Translations under genes and position numbers: made by a program
In this document: in pieces, positions 4,858 to 21,381 of the stretch
Position numbering within the stretch: the first letter of the stretch is position 1
Layout: every line of letters begins with the position of its first letter
The notes under the pieces: generated by a model
What the model saw: only the letters and a program-made list of their open reading frames with translations
Told to the model about the DNA's origin: nothing
Databases searched by the model: none
From: a virus
Reading direction: 5' to 3' (one strand)
Length of the DNA stretch: 26,089 bases
IMG/VR virus record: IMGVR_UViG_3300025543_000177
Location: 1 to 26,089 of that record

Positions 4858-4923
4858 TGCAAGACTTGAAGATAGCCTTTACTAATTTATTAAAAAATAA
4901 AAAAAACAAGTAATAATATACTA

Positions 4924-4980
4924 TAAACCAAACGCTAAGGATGGTTTACCTTTAGCGTAATTAAATTAGTGTAAACCAAA
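4924..4980 (+). promoter_or_regulatory. Candidate H-type RNA pseudoknot with an alternative hairpin
   Basis: Seen directly: stem 1 pairs 4932-4940 with 4950-4958 (9 bp, one G-U), leaving a 9-base loop. Seven bases of that loop (4943-4949, GGTTTAC) are exactly complementary to 4971-4977 (GTAAACC), giving stem 2. Connecting loops are 2, 0 and 12 bases, and the 12-base one is A/T-rich: the textbook geometry of an H-type pseudoknot. The 9-base sequence TAAACCAAA occurs twice, at 4924-4932 and 4972-4980, so 4942-4948 can instead pair with 4924-4930 (7 bp), which is incompatible with both pseudoknot stems. No T-run follows, so it is not a typical intrinsic terminator. It sits 19 bases before the next start codon, in the leader of the unit that includes groEL. 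A regulatory role is inferred. Confidence 0.5.
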
Positions 4981-4996
4981 ATAAAACCAAAACCAA

Positions 4997-5287
4997 ATGA
5001 CTTTTTATTATCGCACTCATTCGTGGAGTAGTGAACCACAAATTACCGAACAAACCACAGCTTTATGGAAACATATGGCTACAAAAGCAAACTGGAGAAT
5101 AGTCCAATTGCCTAATGGTTTTTACCAAACTGAATACCAAGACCTTAAACAAGAAAACACTTGGCATGATGTAACCAGGAGAGAAACAATCAAAGGAGCT
5201 GAAATGGCAATTGATTCAACAGTTGAGCATTATGCTAAAAAGATTGAGTTCTTAAATGGTCCTAAAGTTGTAAAGACTTTCAAATAA
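4997..5287 (+). CDS. Conserved marine-phage protein of unknown function
   Basis: 96 residues, soluble, with a core NWRIVQLPNGFYQTEYQ (residues 32-48) then W-x-D-V-T-R-R-E-T (56-64) and a C-terminal helix ending GPKVVKTFK. I recognise the pattern from other marine phage contigs but know no function for it. It is the first gene after the pseudoknot element and 31 bases before groEL, so it is probably co-transcribed with the chaperonin pair. The leader AAAACCAAAACCAA has no Shine-Dalgarno. The aromatic and basic content would suit a small protein- or nucleic acid-binding fold, but nothing in the sequence decides this. Confidence 0.65.
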   Translation: MTFYYRTHSWSSEPQITEQTTALWKHMATKANWRIVQLPNGFYQTEYQDLKQENTWHDVTRRETIKGAEMAIDSTVEHYAKKIEFLNGPKVVKTFK

Positions 5288-5318: not shown

Positions 5319-6881
5319 ATGTCAGACTTAATAGTCAAAAATCTTAGCTTTGGAAAAGAAGCTAAAGATAAAGTATTTGAAGGTATCACAAAACTCACAA
5401 AAGCCGTTAGCTCCACATTAGGGGCTAGCGGTAAATGTGTGATGCTAGAAGATGGTAATGGTAGACCATTAATTACCAAAGATGGTGTAACAGTAGCAGA
5501 TAGTATTATACTATTAGACCCTGTAGAAAATATGGGTTCTACGCTCTTAAAAGAAGCCGCACGCAAAACTGTAAAGGAAGCCGGAGACGGTACGACCACA
5601 GCCACCGTATTAGCCCATGCGATACTATCAGAAGCTTATAATGAATTAGATCTTGAAGATCCAATAAGTACAAGAGCTTTAAAAGACGGTATTGAAAAAG
5701 CAACAGAGTTAGTTGTAAAATATTTAGAAGAAAAAGCTTTACCTGTTAAAGGTAATATGATAGACAACATTGCAACAATCTCAACTAATAATGATCCTGA
5801 GCTCGGTAAAATTATTGCTGATGCATTTAGATCAGTAGGAGAAACGGGTGTTGTAATGATGGAAACATCAGAAGATTCTGAAACAAAATTTGAAGTTGTT
5901 AATGGCGTTCAATACAATAAAGGATTAACAAATTCTCATTTTATAACTAGTCAGCAACAAAGAGCTGCTGAATTAGATAACCCTTTAGTATTATTAATAG
6001 AATCACCAGTTGATAATGTTAGACAAATACAAAGTGTTTTAGAATATGTTATTAAAAATAATAAGCCTTTATTAATAATTGCAGATGTTGAGCCGGTTGT
6101 GATTTCAACATTAGCAATGAATAAAGTTAAAGGTAATATAAAAATAAATATAATCAATGCACCCACTTACGGAGTAAGCAAGAAAGAAATATTAGATGAC
6201 CTTTCAATGCTTACAGGAGCAACAATAATTAATGAAGATTTAGGTGATGATCTTGATCTTATACAACCAGAGCATTTAGGTGCATGTATAAAAAGTATTA
6301 CCACTGATGAGGAAACTATTCTTCAGGTTAATGAAATGACAGAACAAGTTAAGGAGGTTATTGATAATATTAAAAAAGATTTATTAAAAACAAAACGTCC
6401 TAACGAAATTGTTAAACTTGAAAAAAGACTAGCTAGGCTATCAGCCAAAATTGCTGTAGTAAAAGTTGGGGCAAACTCTGAAGTTGAATTAAAAGAAAAG
6501 AAAGATCGTGTCGAAGATGCAATATGTGCTACAAAAGCTGCTATCAAAGAAGGGGTTGTTTCCGGTGCTGGTATTGCTTTGCATAATGCATCTGATAACA
6601 TTAATAGTAGTTGTAAAGGGGAAGAGGTTTTGCTTAGAGCTATTAAAGCCCCTTATAAAACAATACTCGCAAATGCGGGAATATTATATGGGCCGTACTT
6701 TAAAGAAGGATGGGGCATTAATGTAATTACAGGCGAGGGTTGCAATTTAATTAAAGAAGGTATTATTGATCCATTATTGGTGACAAAAAGTGCATTAAGA
6801 AATGCTGCCTCTGTTGCAACCACAATATTATCTACTGATTGTGTAATTAATAATTTAAGAGTTAATGAAAGCAATAGGTAG
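5319..6881 (+). CDS. groEL: Phage-encoded chaperonin GroEL (Hsp60)
   Basis: 520 residues, collinear with bacterial GroEL. ATP-site residues are kept: D55 in TKDGVTVA (E. coli D52), D90 in GDGTTTATVLA (D87) and D400 in RVEDAICATKAA (D398). Departures: the near-invariant TLGPKG phosphate loop reads TLGASG (A36, S37); the GGG after the catalytic helix reads GAG; the hinge between ATPase and apical domains is otherwise recognisable. In the apical groove that binds substrate and GroES, L203, H207, Q238 and A266 replace E. coli Y199, Y203, L234 and V263, while F208 and L241 are kept. The GGM-rich C-terminal tail is absent; the protein ends NLRVNESNR. It probably forms a folding chamber for virion proteins, either alone with phage GroES or mixed with host subunits. 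The order groEL then groES is the reverse of bacterial operons. Confidence 0.96.
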   Translation: MSDLIVKNLSFGKEAKDKVFEGITKLTKAVSSTLGASGKCVMLEDGNGRPLITKDGVTVADSIILLDPVENMGSTLLKEAARKTVKEAGDGTTTATVLAHAILSEAYNELDLEDPISTRALKDGIEKATELVVKYLEEKALPVKGNMIDNIATISTNNDPELGKIIADAFRSVGETGVVMMETSEDSETKFEVVNGVQYNKGLTNSHFITSQQQRAAELDNPLVLLIESPVDNVRQIQSVLEYVIKNNKPLLIIADVEPVVISTLAMNKVKGNIKINIINAPTYGVSKKEILDDLSMLTGATIINEDLGDDLDLIQPEHLGACIKSITTDEETILQVNEMTEQVKEVIDNIKKDLLKTKRPNEIVKLEKRLARLSAKIAVVKVGANSEVELKEKKDRVEDAICATKAAIKEGVVSGAGIALHNASDNINSSCKGEEVLLRAIKAPYKTILANAGILYGPYFKEGWGINVITGEGCNLIKEGIIDPLLVTKSALRNAASVATTILSTDCVINNLRVNESNR

Positions 6882-7125
6882 AAACTTAATAATAAAAAAA
6901 ATAAAAGAAGGAACTACTAAAACAAAAGGTGGTCTATTACTTTCTGAAAACCAAAGAGACGATATTAGGTACATAGAAGCTGAAGTATTATCAATCGGTA
7001 CGGAAGTCGAAGGTGTTAAAGAAGGAGATTCTATATTTTACGATCGGCATGCTGGTCATAAAATAGAAATTAGTAAAGAAACGTATCATGTTATTAAATT
7101 GCAGGATATAGTTGTTGTTCTATGA
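6865..7125 (+). CDS. groES: Phage-encoded co-chaperonin GroES (Cpn10)
   Basis: 86 residues; caps the GroEL cylinder. Recognised by the N-terminal strand (IGRNLIIKKIKE), the mobile loop with GGLLL at 22-26 (bacterial GGIVL), the barrel strands EAEVLSIG and VKEGDSIFYD, and the end HVIKLQDIVVVL. It is about ten residues shorter than bacterial GroES: the roof hairpin between VLSIG (41-45) and VKEGD (51-55) is nearly gone, as in T4 gp31. The usual Tyr of the (K/R)YAG or DGYG turn is His62 (RHAG). Its ATG lies inside groEL (17-base overlap in another frame) and its TGA overlaps the next ATG (ATGA), which suggests translational coupling. A shortened roof would enlarge the folding cavity, as proposed for gp31; that functional point is inference. 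Confidence 0.93.
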   Translation: MKAIGRNLIIKKIKEGTTKTKGGLLLSENQRDDIRYIEAEVLSIGTEVEGVKEGDSIFYDRHAGHKIEISKETYHVIKLQDIVVVL

Positions 7126-18193: not shown

Positions 18194-19639
18194 ATGGCAG
18201 TAGTACCTGTAGCACCCGAATATGGGTCAATTAAACCTTCTCAGAAGCAACAACTTCTTGAGAGCAACTATTTGGATTTTACAAATGGAACCAATGATTT
18301 TGCACAACAGTATCTTCCTGAAATTTACGAAGCTGAAGTAGAGCGTTACGGAAACCGTACACTTTCTGGATTCTTACGTATGGTTGGTGCTGAAATGCCA
18401 ATGACATCTGATCAGGTCGTTTGGTCAGAACAAAATAGATTGCATATTGCATATAATGATGTAACTAAAGCAACTGAAACTACTTTAACTTTTGCACTAA
18501 ACGCAACAGCTGGACCTAGTTATGTAGCTAACGTTATTTCTAAAAACCAAACATTAGTAGTAGTTGATCCTGCAACTGGGCAAGATCTTAAAGTTTTTGT
18601 AACAGATAGTGTAAACACTTCTCCTACTCTAGCTACTATTACAGTTAAGCCTTATACAGCAGCTGATATGACTGCTCTTTCTGCAGTAGCAGGAGCACTT
18701 AAAATCTTTGTATATGGTTCTGAATACAAAAAAGGAACAACTGATTCTGATATTAAATCTGTAACTCCTTCTTTTACTCAGTATAGTAATTCACCTATTA
18801 TCATCAAAGAAAAGTATTCTATCTCTGGATCTGATACTGCTCAAATTGGATGGGTTGAAGTTGCTACCGAAGCTGGAGCATCTGGATATTTATGGTATCT
18901 AAAAGCTGAATCTGAAACTCGTTTACGTTTTGAAGATTATCTTGAAATGTCTGTAGTTGAAGGTGAATTAGTTTCTGGAACATCTACATTAGGAGCTGAT
19001 GGTTACAAAGGAACTGAAGGTCTTTTTGCTGCTATCCAATCAAGAGGTAACGTTATTAATAACTTTACTGCTGTTGGTGGTCTTGGATCATTTGATAATA
19101 TCCTTAAAAATTTAGATACTCAAGGAGCTATTGAAGAAAACATGCTTTTCTTAAATCGCCAAACGTCTCTTGATTTTGATGATATGCTAGCTGGTCTTTC
19201 TGCTGGAGCAAATGGAGGTACTGCTTATGGATTGTTTGAAAACTCTGAAGAGATGGCATTGAATCTTGGATTCACTGGTTTCCGTAGAGGATCATATGAT
19301 TTCTATAAGACTGACTGGAAATACTTAAATGATGCTTCTACTCGTGGTGCTACTAATGGTGCTGGAGAAGTTGGATCTGGTATTGATGGTGTACTTGTAC
19401 CTGCTGGTACTTCAACTGTATACGATCAAATTCTTGGAACTAATATCCGTAGACCATTCTTACACGTTCGTTATAGAGCTTCACAAGCTGACGACAGAAG
19501 AATGAAGTCTTGGCTAACTGGTTCTGTTGGAGGAGCTTATACTTCTGACCTTGATGCAATGGAAGTTCACTTCCTTTCTGAAAGATGTCTAGTTGTACAA
19601 GCAGCCAACAATTTTGTATTGTTTACTGCATCTGCATAA
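18194..19639 (+). CDS. Major capsid protein
   Basis: 481 residues, presumed HK97-like fold. The N-terminal block FAQQYLPEIYEAEVERYGNR (36-55), then SGFLRMVGAEMPMTSDQV and WSEQNRLHI, is a pattern I recognise from major capsid proteins of marine phages, and the gene sits in the standard terL-portal-scaffold-capsid order. No cleavable N-terminal delta domain is obvious; the separate scaffold gene fits that. Codon use differs from its neighbours: by hand count Leu is CTT about 19 times and TTA about 11, whereas the flanking genes favour TTA strongly, and CGT is used for Arg. This suggests selection for very high expression. A strong intrinsic terminator follows 16 bases after the stop. Confidence 0.87.
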   Translation: MAVVPVAPEYGSIKPSQKQQLLESNYLDFTNGTNDFAQQYLPEIYEAEVERYGNRTLSGFLRMVGAEMPMTSDQVVWSEQNRLHIAYNDVTKATETTLTFALNATAGPSYVANVISKNQTLVVVDPATGQDLKVFVTDSVNTSPTLATITVKPYTAADMTALSAVAGALKIFVYGSEYKKGTTDSDIKSVTPSFTQYSNSPIIIKEKYSISGSDTAQIGWVEVATEAGASGYLWYLKAESETRLRFEDYLEMSVVEGELVSGTSTLGADGYKGTEGLFAAIQSRGNVINNFTAVGGLGSFDNILKNLDTQGAIEENMLFLNRQTSLDFDDMLAGLSAGANGGTAYGLFENSEEMALNLGFTGFRRGSYDFYKTDWKYLNDASTRGATNGAGEVGSGIDGVLVPAGTSTVYDQILGTNIRRPFLHVRYRASQADDRRMKSWLTGSVGGAYTSDLDAMEVHFLSERCLVVQAANNFVLFTASA

Positions 19640-19654
19640 CAACAATTTGTAATT

Positions 19655-19695
19655 ATTACCCTCGATGTAATTTCGGGGGTAATTTTTACTTTTAT
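19655..19695 (+). terminator. Intrinsic terminator after the major capsid gene
   Basis: Eleven-base-pair stem: ATTACCCTCGA (19655-19665) pairs with TCGGGGGTAAT (19673-19683), one G-U, with a 7-base loop TGTAATT, followed by TTTTACTTTTAT. It lies between the capsid stop and the next gene and would end much of the transcript while allowing some read-through to downstream genes. Confidence 0.85.
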
Positions 19696-19718
19696 AAATT
19701 ATTTAATCTTATTATATT

Positions 19719-20552: not shown

Positions 20553-20566
20553 CATGTAATATATTT

Positions 20567-20607
20567 TATAGTAGGTAAGCCGTTTTAAATGCGGCTTATT
20601 TGCTATA
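20567..20607 (+). promoter_or_regulatory. Long intergenic RNA hairpin
   Basis: Sixteen-base-pair stem: TATAGTAGGTAAGCCG (20567-20582) pairs with CGGCTTATTTGCTATA (20592-20607), with three G-U pairs and a 9-base loop TTTTAAATG. It is followed by AATAATAAAAAATAT and not by a T-run, so it is not a typical terminator on this strand. It lies 18 bases before the next start codon. Possible roles are transcript processing, 3'-end protection or attenuation. Confidence 0.65.
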
Positions 20608-20625
20608 AATAATAAAAAATATAAA

Positions 20626-21381
20626 ATGGCAATAAACGTAAATACTGTATATCAAACAGTATTATTAATACTTAATAAAGAACAGCGTGGGTATATGACG
20701 CCTTTAGAGTTTAATAATATTGGCACACAAGTTCAGCTTGAAATATTTGAAAAGTATTTTGAGGATTTGAACCAACAAATACGTGTTCAGCAAACAGATA
20801 CAGATTATGCGGATAGGGTTGCTAACTTAGATGAGAAATTATCTATATTTAAAACATTTGGTGATGCGGTATATAATAACACTACACCTACTAATACTTA
20901 TTTTACATTACCAACAACCGACGGTTATGGATCAACTGTATCTTTTTACAGACTTGGCACTGTAACTTATAATAATGAAGTTGAACTTCAAAGACTTCAA
21001 AGAGGTGAATTTACATACATTGATAAATCTCCTATAACAAAACCCACTTTAGACTGGCCCGTATATTTATACGAGAACCAAAAACTATTTGTTAAACCAA
21101 CAACAATAGTAAATAATATTCAGGTTGATTATATAAGAAAACCTAATAATGTTATTTGGGGTTTTACAACAGGTAATTTAGGGCAGTATATATATAACAA
21201 AAATGAATATGATGCTACAACTCAACCAAATGGTTCAATTCAATTTGAGCTTCATGAGTCTGAACAGACTGAGTTAATATTAAAAATATTAGTATATGCT
21301 GGTATCATTATAAGAGATCCACAAATTGTACAAGCGGCTGCACAACAAGTGCAAGCTGAAGAAATAAATAAAAAAAGCTAA
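20626..21381 (+). CDS. Head-tail connector/adaptor-like protein
   Basis: 251 residues. The N-terminus NVNTVYQTVLLILNKEQRG (4-22), then TPLEFNNIGTQVQLEIFEKYF, and the end with LHESEQTELILKILVYAG plus a Gln/Ala-rich helix match a family I recognise from marine and Bacteroidota phages, placed between capsid and tail hub genes. The general form (helical N-terminus, beta middle, helical end) is that of the first ring below the portal in short-tailed phages. Six bases separate it from the next gene. Function is inferred from gene order and pattern, not from a catalytic or binding motif. Confidence 0.7.
   Translation: MAINVNTVYQTVLLILNKEQRGYMTPLEFNNIGTQVQLEIFEKYFEDLNQQIRVQQTDTDYADRVANLDEKLSIFKTFGDAVYNNTTPTNTYFTLPTTDGYGSTVSFYRLGTVTYNNEVELQRLQRGEFTYIDKSPITKPTLDWPVYLYENQKLFVKPTTIVNNIQVDYIRKPNNVIWGFTTGNLGQYIYNKNEYDATTQPNGSIQFELHESEQTELILKILVYAGIIIRDPQIVQAAAQQVQAEEINKKS

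Follow-up and report, generated by a model that had tools for sequence, protein, structure and literature searches.

The 5′ leader of a phage chaperonin unit carries an H-type RNA pseudoknot, which we regard with near certainty as a genuine RNA structure, because relatives keep a pseudoknot or a hairpin at the same place while its letters change in matched pairs. The window analysed here (the whole stretch of 26,089 nt) is one 26-kb virus record, and the element lies between a candidate promoter box and the gene for a 96-amino-acid (96-aa) protein:

4905-4918, plus strand: AACAAGTAATAATA box, a candidate phage (late) promoter element
4924-4932 and 4972-4980, plus strand: the two copies of a direct repeat, TAAACCAAA, read from the sequence
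4932-4940 paired with 4950-4958, plus strand: stem 1 (S1), 9 bp with one G-U pair at 4939/4951; its arms read ACGCTAAGG (4932-4940) and CTTTAGCGT (4950-4958)
4943-4949 paired with 4971-4977, plus strand: stem 2 (S2), GGTTTAC against GTAAACC, seven Watson-Crick pairs, with a possible extra pair T4942-A4978
4941-4942, and 4959-4970: loops L1 (2 nt) and L3 (12 nt), with L2 of 0 nt
4972-4996, plus strand: A-rich tract with UAAACC/AAAACC repeats, running to the start codon
4997-5287, plus strand: gene for the 96-aa protein, first gene of the unit
5319-6881, plus strand: GroEL chaperonin (PHROG 5725, E 3.9e-131; Pfam Cpn60_TCP1)
6865-7125, plus strand: GroES co-chaperonin (PHROG 3188; Pfam Cpn10)

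Re-reading the sequence confirmed the coordinates of the original prediction, with both stems and loops of 2, 0 and 12 nt. The prediction had also placed the end of the element 19 bases before a start codon; the distance from the end of S2 is indeed 19 nt, and the ATG at 4997 belongs to the 96-aa gene and GroEL begins only at 5319. The 3′ arm of S2 (4971-4977) overlaps a conserved UAAACC unit of the leader. In a search for H-type folds with nearest-neighbour stacks, the summed stack energy of the window pseudoknot was -27.2 kcal/mol, the top rank among 1040 overlapping 100-nt tiles that covered both strands. Out of 1000 dinucleotide-shuffled leaders, not one reached this value (best shuffle -18.7), and the nested fold of the window leader alone gave a z of -3.1.

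The 96-aa protein matches no Pfam or PHROG family and nothing in the annotated phage collection, and its relatives occur on 439 stretches in IMG/VR (>400 viral contigs). Three scans for these relatives yielded 123 distinct leaders, at all of which (123/123) GroEL is the next gene after the 96-aa gene, and the protein is 70-80% identical across lineages. Its predicted fold is alpha-beta-beta-beta-alpha (pLDDT 80); a structural search returned no confident relative and none confident for nucleic-acid binding, and Foldseek gave no viral match with E < 0.001. The order of elements in this fold had suggested a dsRNA-binding domain, a candidate that we rejected given that the best Foldseek match was of YegP type (E 0.095) and a dsRBD appeared at rank 29. 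TerL shares about 46% identity with those of the Flavobacterium elemo-group, Cellulophaga and related phages and 65% with one uncultured 60.9-kb Caudoviricetes record, and the portal, terminase and head proteins of the window match PHROGs. Judged by its proteins, the window is a marine relative of the Flavobacterium "elemo" and Cellulophaga phages, with a protein set that we take to be of the crAss-like kind. Contigs of this phage group are also found binned in Woesearchaeota, Chloroflexi, Gammaproteobacteria, Aliivibrio and other assemblies (L226-L235), and are probably mis-binned phage DNA.

In 85 of the 123 leaders, by label, a compact H-type pseudoknot occupies the same slot as in the window (for example ATACCCTGCTCGGGTAGAGCAATAAACCAAATATAAACTTAAAACCAAAAACT-ATG). 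Its S1 has 3-4 pairs (ACC/GGT or CCC/GGG), L1 is one G or U, S2 has 4 pairs, L2 is 0 (sometimes 1) and L3 1-3 nt, giving a total of about 18-20 nt, and its end lies 30-35 nt from the ATG independently of the upstream content. Across the 71 distinct leaders that were aligned, 98.2% of cells pair compared with 88.6 in shuffles, 60 cells carry double changes compared with 23.6, and the covariation score is 0.258 compared with 0.108, with none of 500 shuffles matching the set on pairing, double changes or covariation score. Sliding the partners reduced pairing to at most 47%, and the cells include four G-U and zero A-C combinations. The S2 arms read GCUC/GAGC, GCCC/GGGC, GCAC/GUGC or GUCC/GGAC, and GCCA/UGGC in L030 and L232. 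To account for these S2 types, a quick tree from the 96-aa protein and part of GroEL requires 7 changes or more; L130, L156, L054, L138 and L106 form long branches in it. On supported branches the outer S1 pair gave 5 independent contrasts (5:0), its two positions changing together in nearly all of them and in opposition in none; the third S2 pair gave 4:0, so few contrasts that sign tests alone are unable to reach 0.05. Shuffles, topology and contrasts together argue strongly that both compact stems are real. Nested folding of the compact leader favours the S2 hairpin alone, and with loops this short the H-type comes close to its lower geometric limit. The prediction of an H-type pseudoknot ahead of the chaperonin unit, under selection at the RNA level, is borne out by compensatory changes and by shuffles.

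The compact motif is largely confined to this position. Run on 28 long records, a covariance model built from the compact leader gave a single strong match per genome in most of them; extra matches at E about 0.05, considered as second copies, were dismissed as chance. Among 2.9 million viral contigs the compact pattern was found on 14, and of six matches inspected five lie before a 96-aa gene, while the rest of the contigs were already in the 96-aa set; the match in L245 was rejected as GC-rich chance. A simple descriptor run on both strands of 0.93 Mb of loci gave 125 matches in the leader (near-copies counted) and 20 elsewhere. Against the window, the compact covariance model scored 15.4 bits (E 0.27), by way of the repeat tract, and on account of this weak match we set the long pseudoknot of the window apart from the compact motif, with which it shares only the slot.

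The long pseudoknot is unchanged in form throughout the clade of the window (L001-L006 and two more contigs), from which six distinct rows were compared. The original prediction was to be abandoned if relatives lacked compensatory changes; within the clade there is one double change per stem, and both stems covary in the compact set. In S1, positions 4934/4956 show the double compensatory change, G-C versus A-U, and 4939/4951 changes from G-U to A-U, whereas the outermost S1 pair is broken in some rows, with A-C there. The double change in S2 concerns the outer pair 4942/4978, U-A versus C-G in L002; as the inner seven pairs are invariant, support for S2 within the clade consists of one varying pair and the length of the stem. 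When the partner was slid by 1-3 columns, no more than 43% of cells still paired, down from 91%, and every double change disappeared. In the 2.9 million viral contigs the long-pseudoknot pattern matched the window's clade and L225 alone, the latter a chance match inside a coding region.

The original prediction further read the direct repeat as a two-state layout, in which 4924-4930 would pair with 4942-4948. The repeat and the alternative pairing are present, but the competing hairpin (-4.4 kcal/mol) is far weaker than S1 (-10.6 kcal/mol) and is favoured only in nascent RNA ending before 4958, after which S1 displaces it; closure of S2 becomes possible once the transcript passes 4977. Moreover, conservation of the flanking repeats in homologues failed, the 5′ TAAACCA copy being confined to the window's clade. 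We therefore see in the alternative hairpin a folding intermediate at best, which is not evidence of a two-state switch. Since L064 resembles the window minus the insert, the repeat can be explained as the first unit of the tract, and the TAAACCAAA copies would represent this unit on either side of an inserted structure. Should the 4905-4918 box be a promoter, transcripts would carry the 5′ copy at their very start.

Occupancy of the slot varies across the tree. The compact pseudoknot is probably the older state, since it is present to either side of the midpoint root. One clade (L033, L048, L073, L106, L138) carries plain hairpins with GAAA or UUCG loops instead, and the structure is absent in several others (L016, L017, L064, L057 and others). 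A divergent set of 43 distinct leaders mostly shows nothing more than a small hairpin around the box; L321, L327 and L329 carry compact pseudoknots. The long form of the window and those of L156 and L042 have separate origins on the tree, and in all three the loop finds its pairing partner in the leader tract (GGUUUAC/GUAAACC in the window), although the long pseudoknots of L042 and L156 are tentative, being single sequences, and the second stem of L042 has only 4 pairs. The nearest neighbours of the window's clade, L009 and L064, have no pseudoknot. The long pseudoknot of the window is a local replacement.

The leader tract follows the 96-aa gene closely. At least two WAACC units (of the UAAACC/AAAACC type) lie within 45 nt of the ATG in 120/123 and 37/43 leaders of this gene. 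Seven genomes contributed 341 ORFs of 80 aa or more, of which 7 have at least two units within 40 nt, and 6 of these 7 are the 96-aa gene; given this near-exclusivity, the tract is not a general start-site trait. GroEL operons of the elemo type that are without the 96-aa gene (L331-L344, L250) have neither repeat units nor a pseudoknot, and their groEL is directly preceded by a Bacteroidota host-type TAnnTTTG promoter in 10 of 10 distinct leaders. The leader therefore accompanies the 96-aa gene and not GroEL. Start codon and tract lie outside the structure in every form, which makes simple occlusion of the start unlikely, and weak pairing near the start falls outside the pseudoknot.

Two transcriptional settings can be distinguished upstream. 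The AACAAGTRATWATA box occurs in 2-6 copies per genome at no more than one mismatch in six genomes (G022, G006, G011, G002, G015, G007; shuffles 0-2), mostly just before a few structural genes and the chaperonin operon, and is a candidate late promoter of this phage group; intergenic copies ahead of structural operons number 2-4 per genome. It stands 5′ of the structure in 29 compact leaders, 19 nt ahead of the CC in 26 of them. In 44 of the 85 compact pseudoknots there is no box and the upstream frame stops 0-7 nt before the structure, so that the structure is not always brought to the 5′ end by the box and serves the downstream unit in both settings. In a divergent clade (L271, L280, L324, L278, L041 and relatives), an inverted repeat, ACTATC-AAGT-GATAGT or ATCACTT-N4-AAGTGAT, has the box as its 3′ half. 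A similar arrangement of box-like sequence, strong hairpin, A-rich leader and ATG is found at a second operon, in the window (gene at 20626) and with its homologues in six relatives; there, the leader at 20556-20625 places a strong hairpin before a 251-aa virion gene, with UUCG/GAAA loops in several relatives. Directly after the major head protein gene (18194-19639), a long GC-rich stem followed by a T-rich stretch (19651-19700) is a probable intrinsic terminator.

We propose, with a probability of roughly 0.45, that the element acts as a constitutive 5′ structural cap or insulator in the leader of the 96-aa/GroEL/GroES operon. The structure, its conservation, its position and the way it is replaced are demonstrated, and from these we infer for the model a transcription start and a stabilising and insulating action. 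Transcription would begin at the structure or close to it, as suggested by the AACAAGTRATWATA box 19 nt upstream, and the pseudoknot, or a GAAA/UUCG hairpin in some lineages, would form co-transcriptionally at the 5′ end or just after the upstream stop. It would shield the 5′ side of the mRNA against 5′-end-dependent decay and keep the A-rich UAAACC/AAAACC tract and the AUG from pairing with upstream RNA. The free tract and AUG could then support good Bacteroidota-type initiation independent of a Shine-Dalgarno sequence, with the structure being constitutive and not a switch. In Flavobacterium, A-rich, unpaired start regions favour initiation (PMC6847099).

The exchange between pseudoknot and tetraloop hairpin points to a generic structural job of this kind, unlike that of an aptamer, and the fixed distance to the ATG whatever lies upstream ties the structure to the downstream unit and not to the upstream gene. 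The parallel order of elements at the second operon and the AUG region left unpaired by the structure also agree with a cap. The element resembles the 5′-terminal stabilisers of the ompA, papA and aprE type in that a stable structure may lie at or near the putative 5′ end, a plain hairpin suffices and the sequence is free while the structure alone is kept; 5′-terminal stem-loops stabilise bacterial mRNAs according to references in PMC3997798. It differs from them in that most members here are pseudoknots, often abutting an upstream stop codon and not a promoter. Two observations speak against the cap: translating ribosomes would melt the structure where an upstream frame abuts it, and the UAAACC/AAAACC tract surpasses a generic A-rich start in specificity, a hint that it is specifically recognised.

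The main rival, which we consider less likely, is a translational operator resembling that of T4 gene 32, at which the pseudoknot would nucleate a protein (the 96-aa protein itself or the phage SSB) that covers the repeats and the start and represses translation. The gene 32 operator consists of a pseudoknot followed by a repeat tract (PMC535899), and the layout found here is that of T4, T2 and RB69, with a phage 5′ leader, an H-type pseudoknot and then unstructured short A/U-rich repeats to the start codon. The repeats outlast the pseudoknot and are near-exclusive to the 96-aa gene, and the elemo-type operons without this gene lack both (10 distinct leaders). A comparable loss is on record for the T4-like RB49, a relative reported to be without the pseudoknot, in which the repeats are reported to persist (PMC535899), although a review disagrees on the RB49 tract (PMC3014915). 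However, the 96-aa protein remains 70-80% identical between lineages with a pseudoknot, a hairpin or no structure and shows no sign of co-change, and among structural relatives of its predicted fold none that binds nucleic acids was confident. The unit here is 96-aa/GroEL and not SSB, there is no Shine-Dalgarno sequence, the compact form measures about 18-20 nt compared with about 28, and the repeats are UAAACC/AAAACC instead of UUAAA. Neither the leader nor the genes proved homologous to gene 32 or its leader, the downstream genes being the 96-aa family (no PHROG or Pfam match) and GroEL. Since the genes are unrelated, we do not file the element as a gene 32-type operator; the likeness is one of layout, and binding is putative.

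A more specific version, which we consider unlikely, is that near-minimal pseudoknot and tract form an operator of the chaperonin operon under autogenous control by the 96-aa protein, as a second, independent instance of gene 32-type control in which the pseudoknot was repeatedly lost, replaced or rebuilt. The larger rebuilt pseudoknots (window, L042, L156) would then recruit the tract itself. A 2010 review described the T4 gene 32 pseudoknot as possibly the sole viral pseudoknot in translational autoregulation (PMC3014915).

It is improbable that the element acts at the DNA level, with its overlapping inverted repeats belonging to a promoter or serving as a protein operator, so that the RNA fold would be a by-product. 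The candidate promoter box close by, the overlapping dyads (CC..GG and GCYC..GRGC) and the position of the box within an inverted repeat in the divergent clade are consistent with this reading. However, the arms vary freely with pairing kept, which a sequence-reading protein would not tolerate, and the GAAA/UUCG tetraloops of the replacing hairpins are RNA features. The presence of G-U and lack of A-C cells in the compact set likewise favours RNA, whereas the window's clade, with A-C at the outer S1 pair, is equivocal.

A role for the upstream gene, as a 3′ stabiliser of the fibre mRNA, a ribosome pause or a terminator, is slightly less probable again. It would agree with the 44 relatives in which the structure follows the stop of an upstream frame by 0-7 nt, but the abutting upstream genes are mutually unrelated and the fibre gene of the window lies upstream at only 10 of the 123 loci. 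In 29 relatives and the window the upstream stop is 33-80 nt away, and no U-tract follows the stem. The proposed stabilisation of the fibre mRNA accordingly loses its footing, as the structure travels with the 96-aa and GroEL genes while the upstream gene is exchanged. Cassettes have seemingly been exchanged at the 5′ edge of the pseudoknot in L142, L146, L151, L165, L172, L049, L040, L059, L039 and others.

Control by a ligand, an ion or temperature, through a switch like preQ1 or SAM-II or a thermosensor, is the most doubtful of these readings. The element resembles preQ1-I and SAM-II in being a small H-type leader pseudoknot with an A-rich 3′ part, and the window adds a possible alternative pairing. 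Unlike these riboswitches, it has no match in Rfam, at the gathering score or at E<=1, in a search whose models leave pseudoknot pairs not jointly scored and are weaker for very short motifs. No conserved ligand-binding core was found across the relatives, which have only few conserved unpaired positions, and close relatives with the same genes carry tetraloop hairpins, long pseudoknots or nothing instead. The ligand switch of the original prediction is therefore poorly supported, and so is its temperature control, since the pseudoknot does not sequester the start region, which is free in either state. With the CIRCE/HrcA system of groE operons the window shares an inverted repeat with 9-nt arms and a 9-nt spacer before a groE unit, but its sequence differs and its arms vary by compensatory change; CIRCE (TTAGCACTC-N9-GAGTGCTAA) gave 0 matches when up to 3 mismatches were allowed. 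Because the stop spacing is not constant (0-7 nt versus at least 33 nt), we rejected a programmed frameshift or readthrough in the upstream gene.

These leaders constitute a well-supported structured RNA family, absent from Rfam, that precedes phage GroEL in abundant uncultured marine Bacteroidota phages. One slot swaps a pseudoknot, a tetraloop hairpin, a bigger pseudoknot or nothing, with the genes and the repeats around it retained, and this turnover is a natural experiment on what a leader pseudoknot is needed for.
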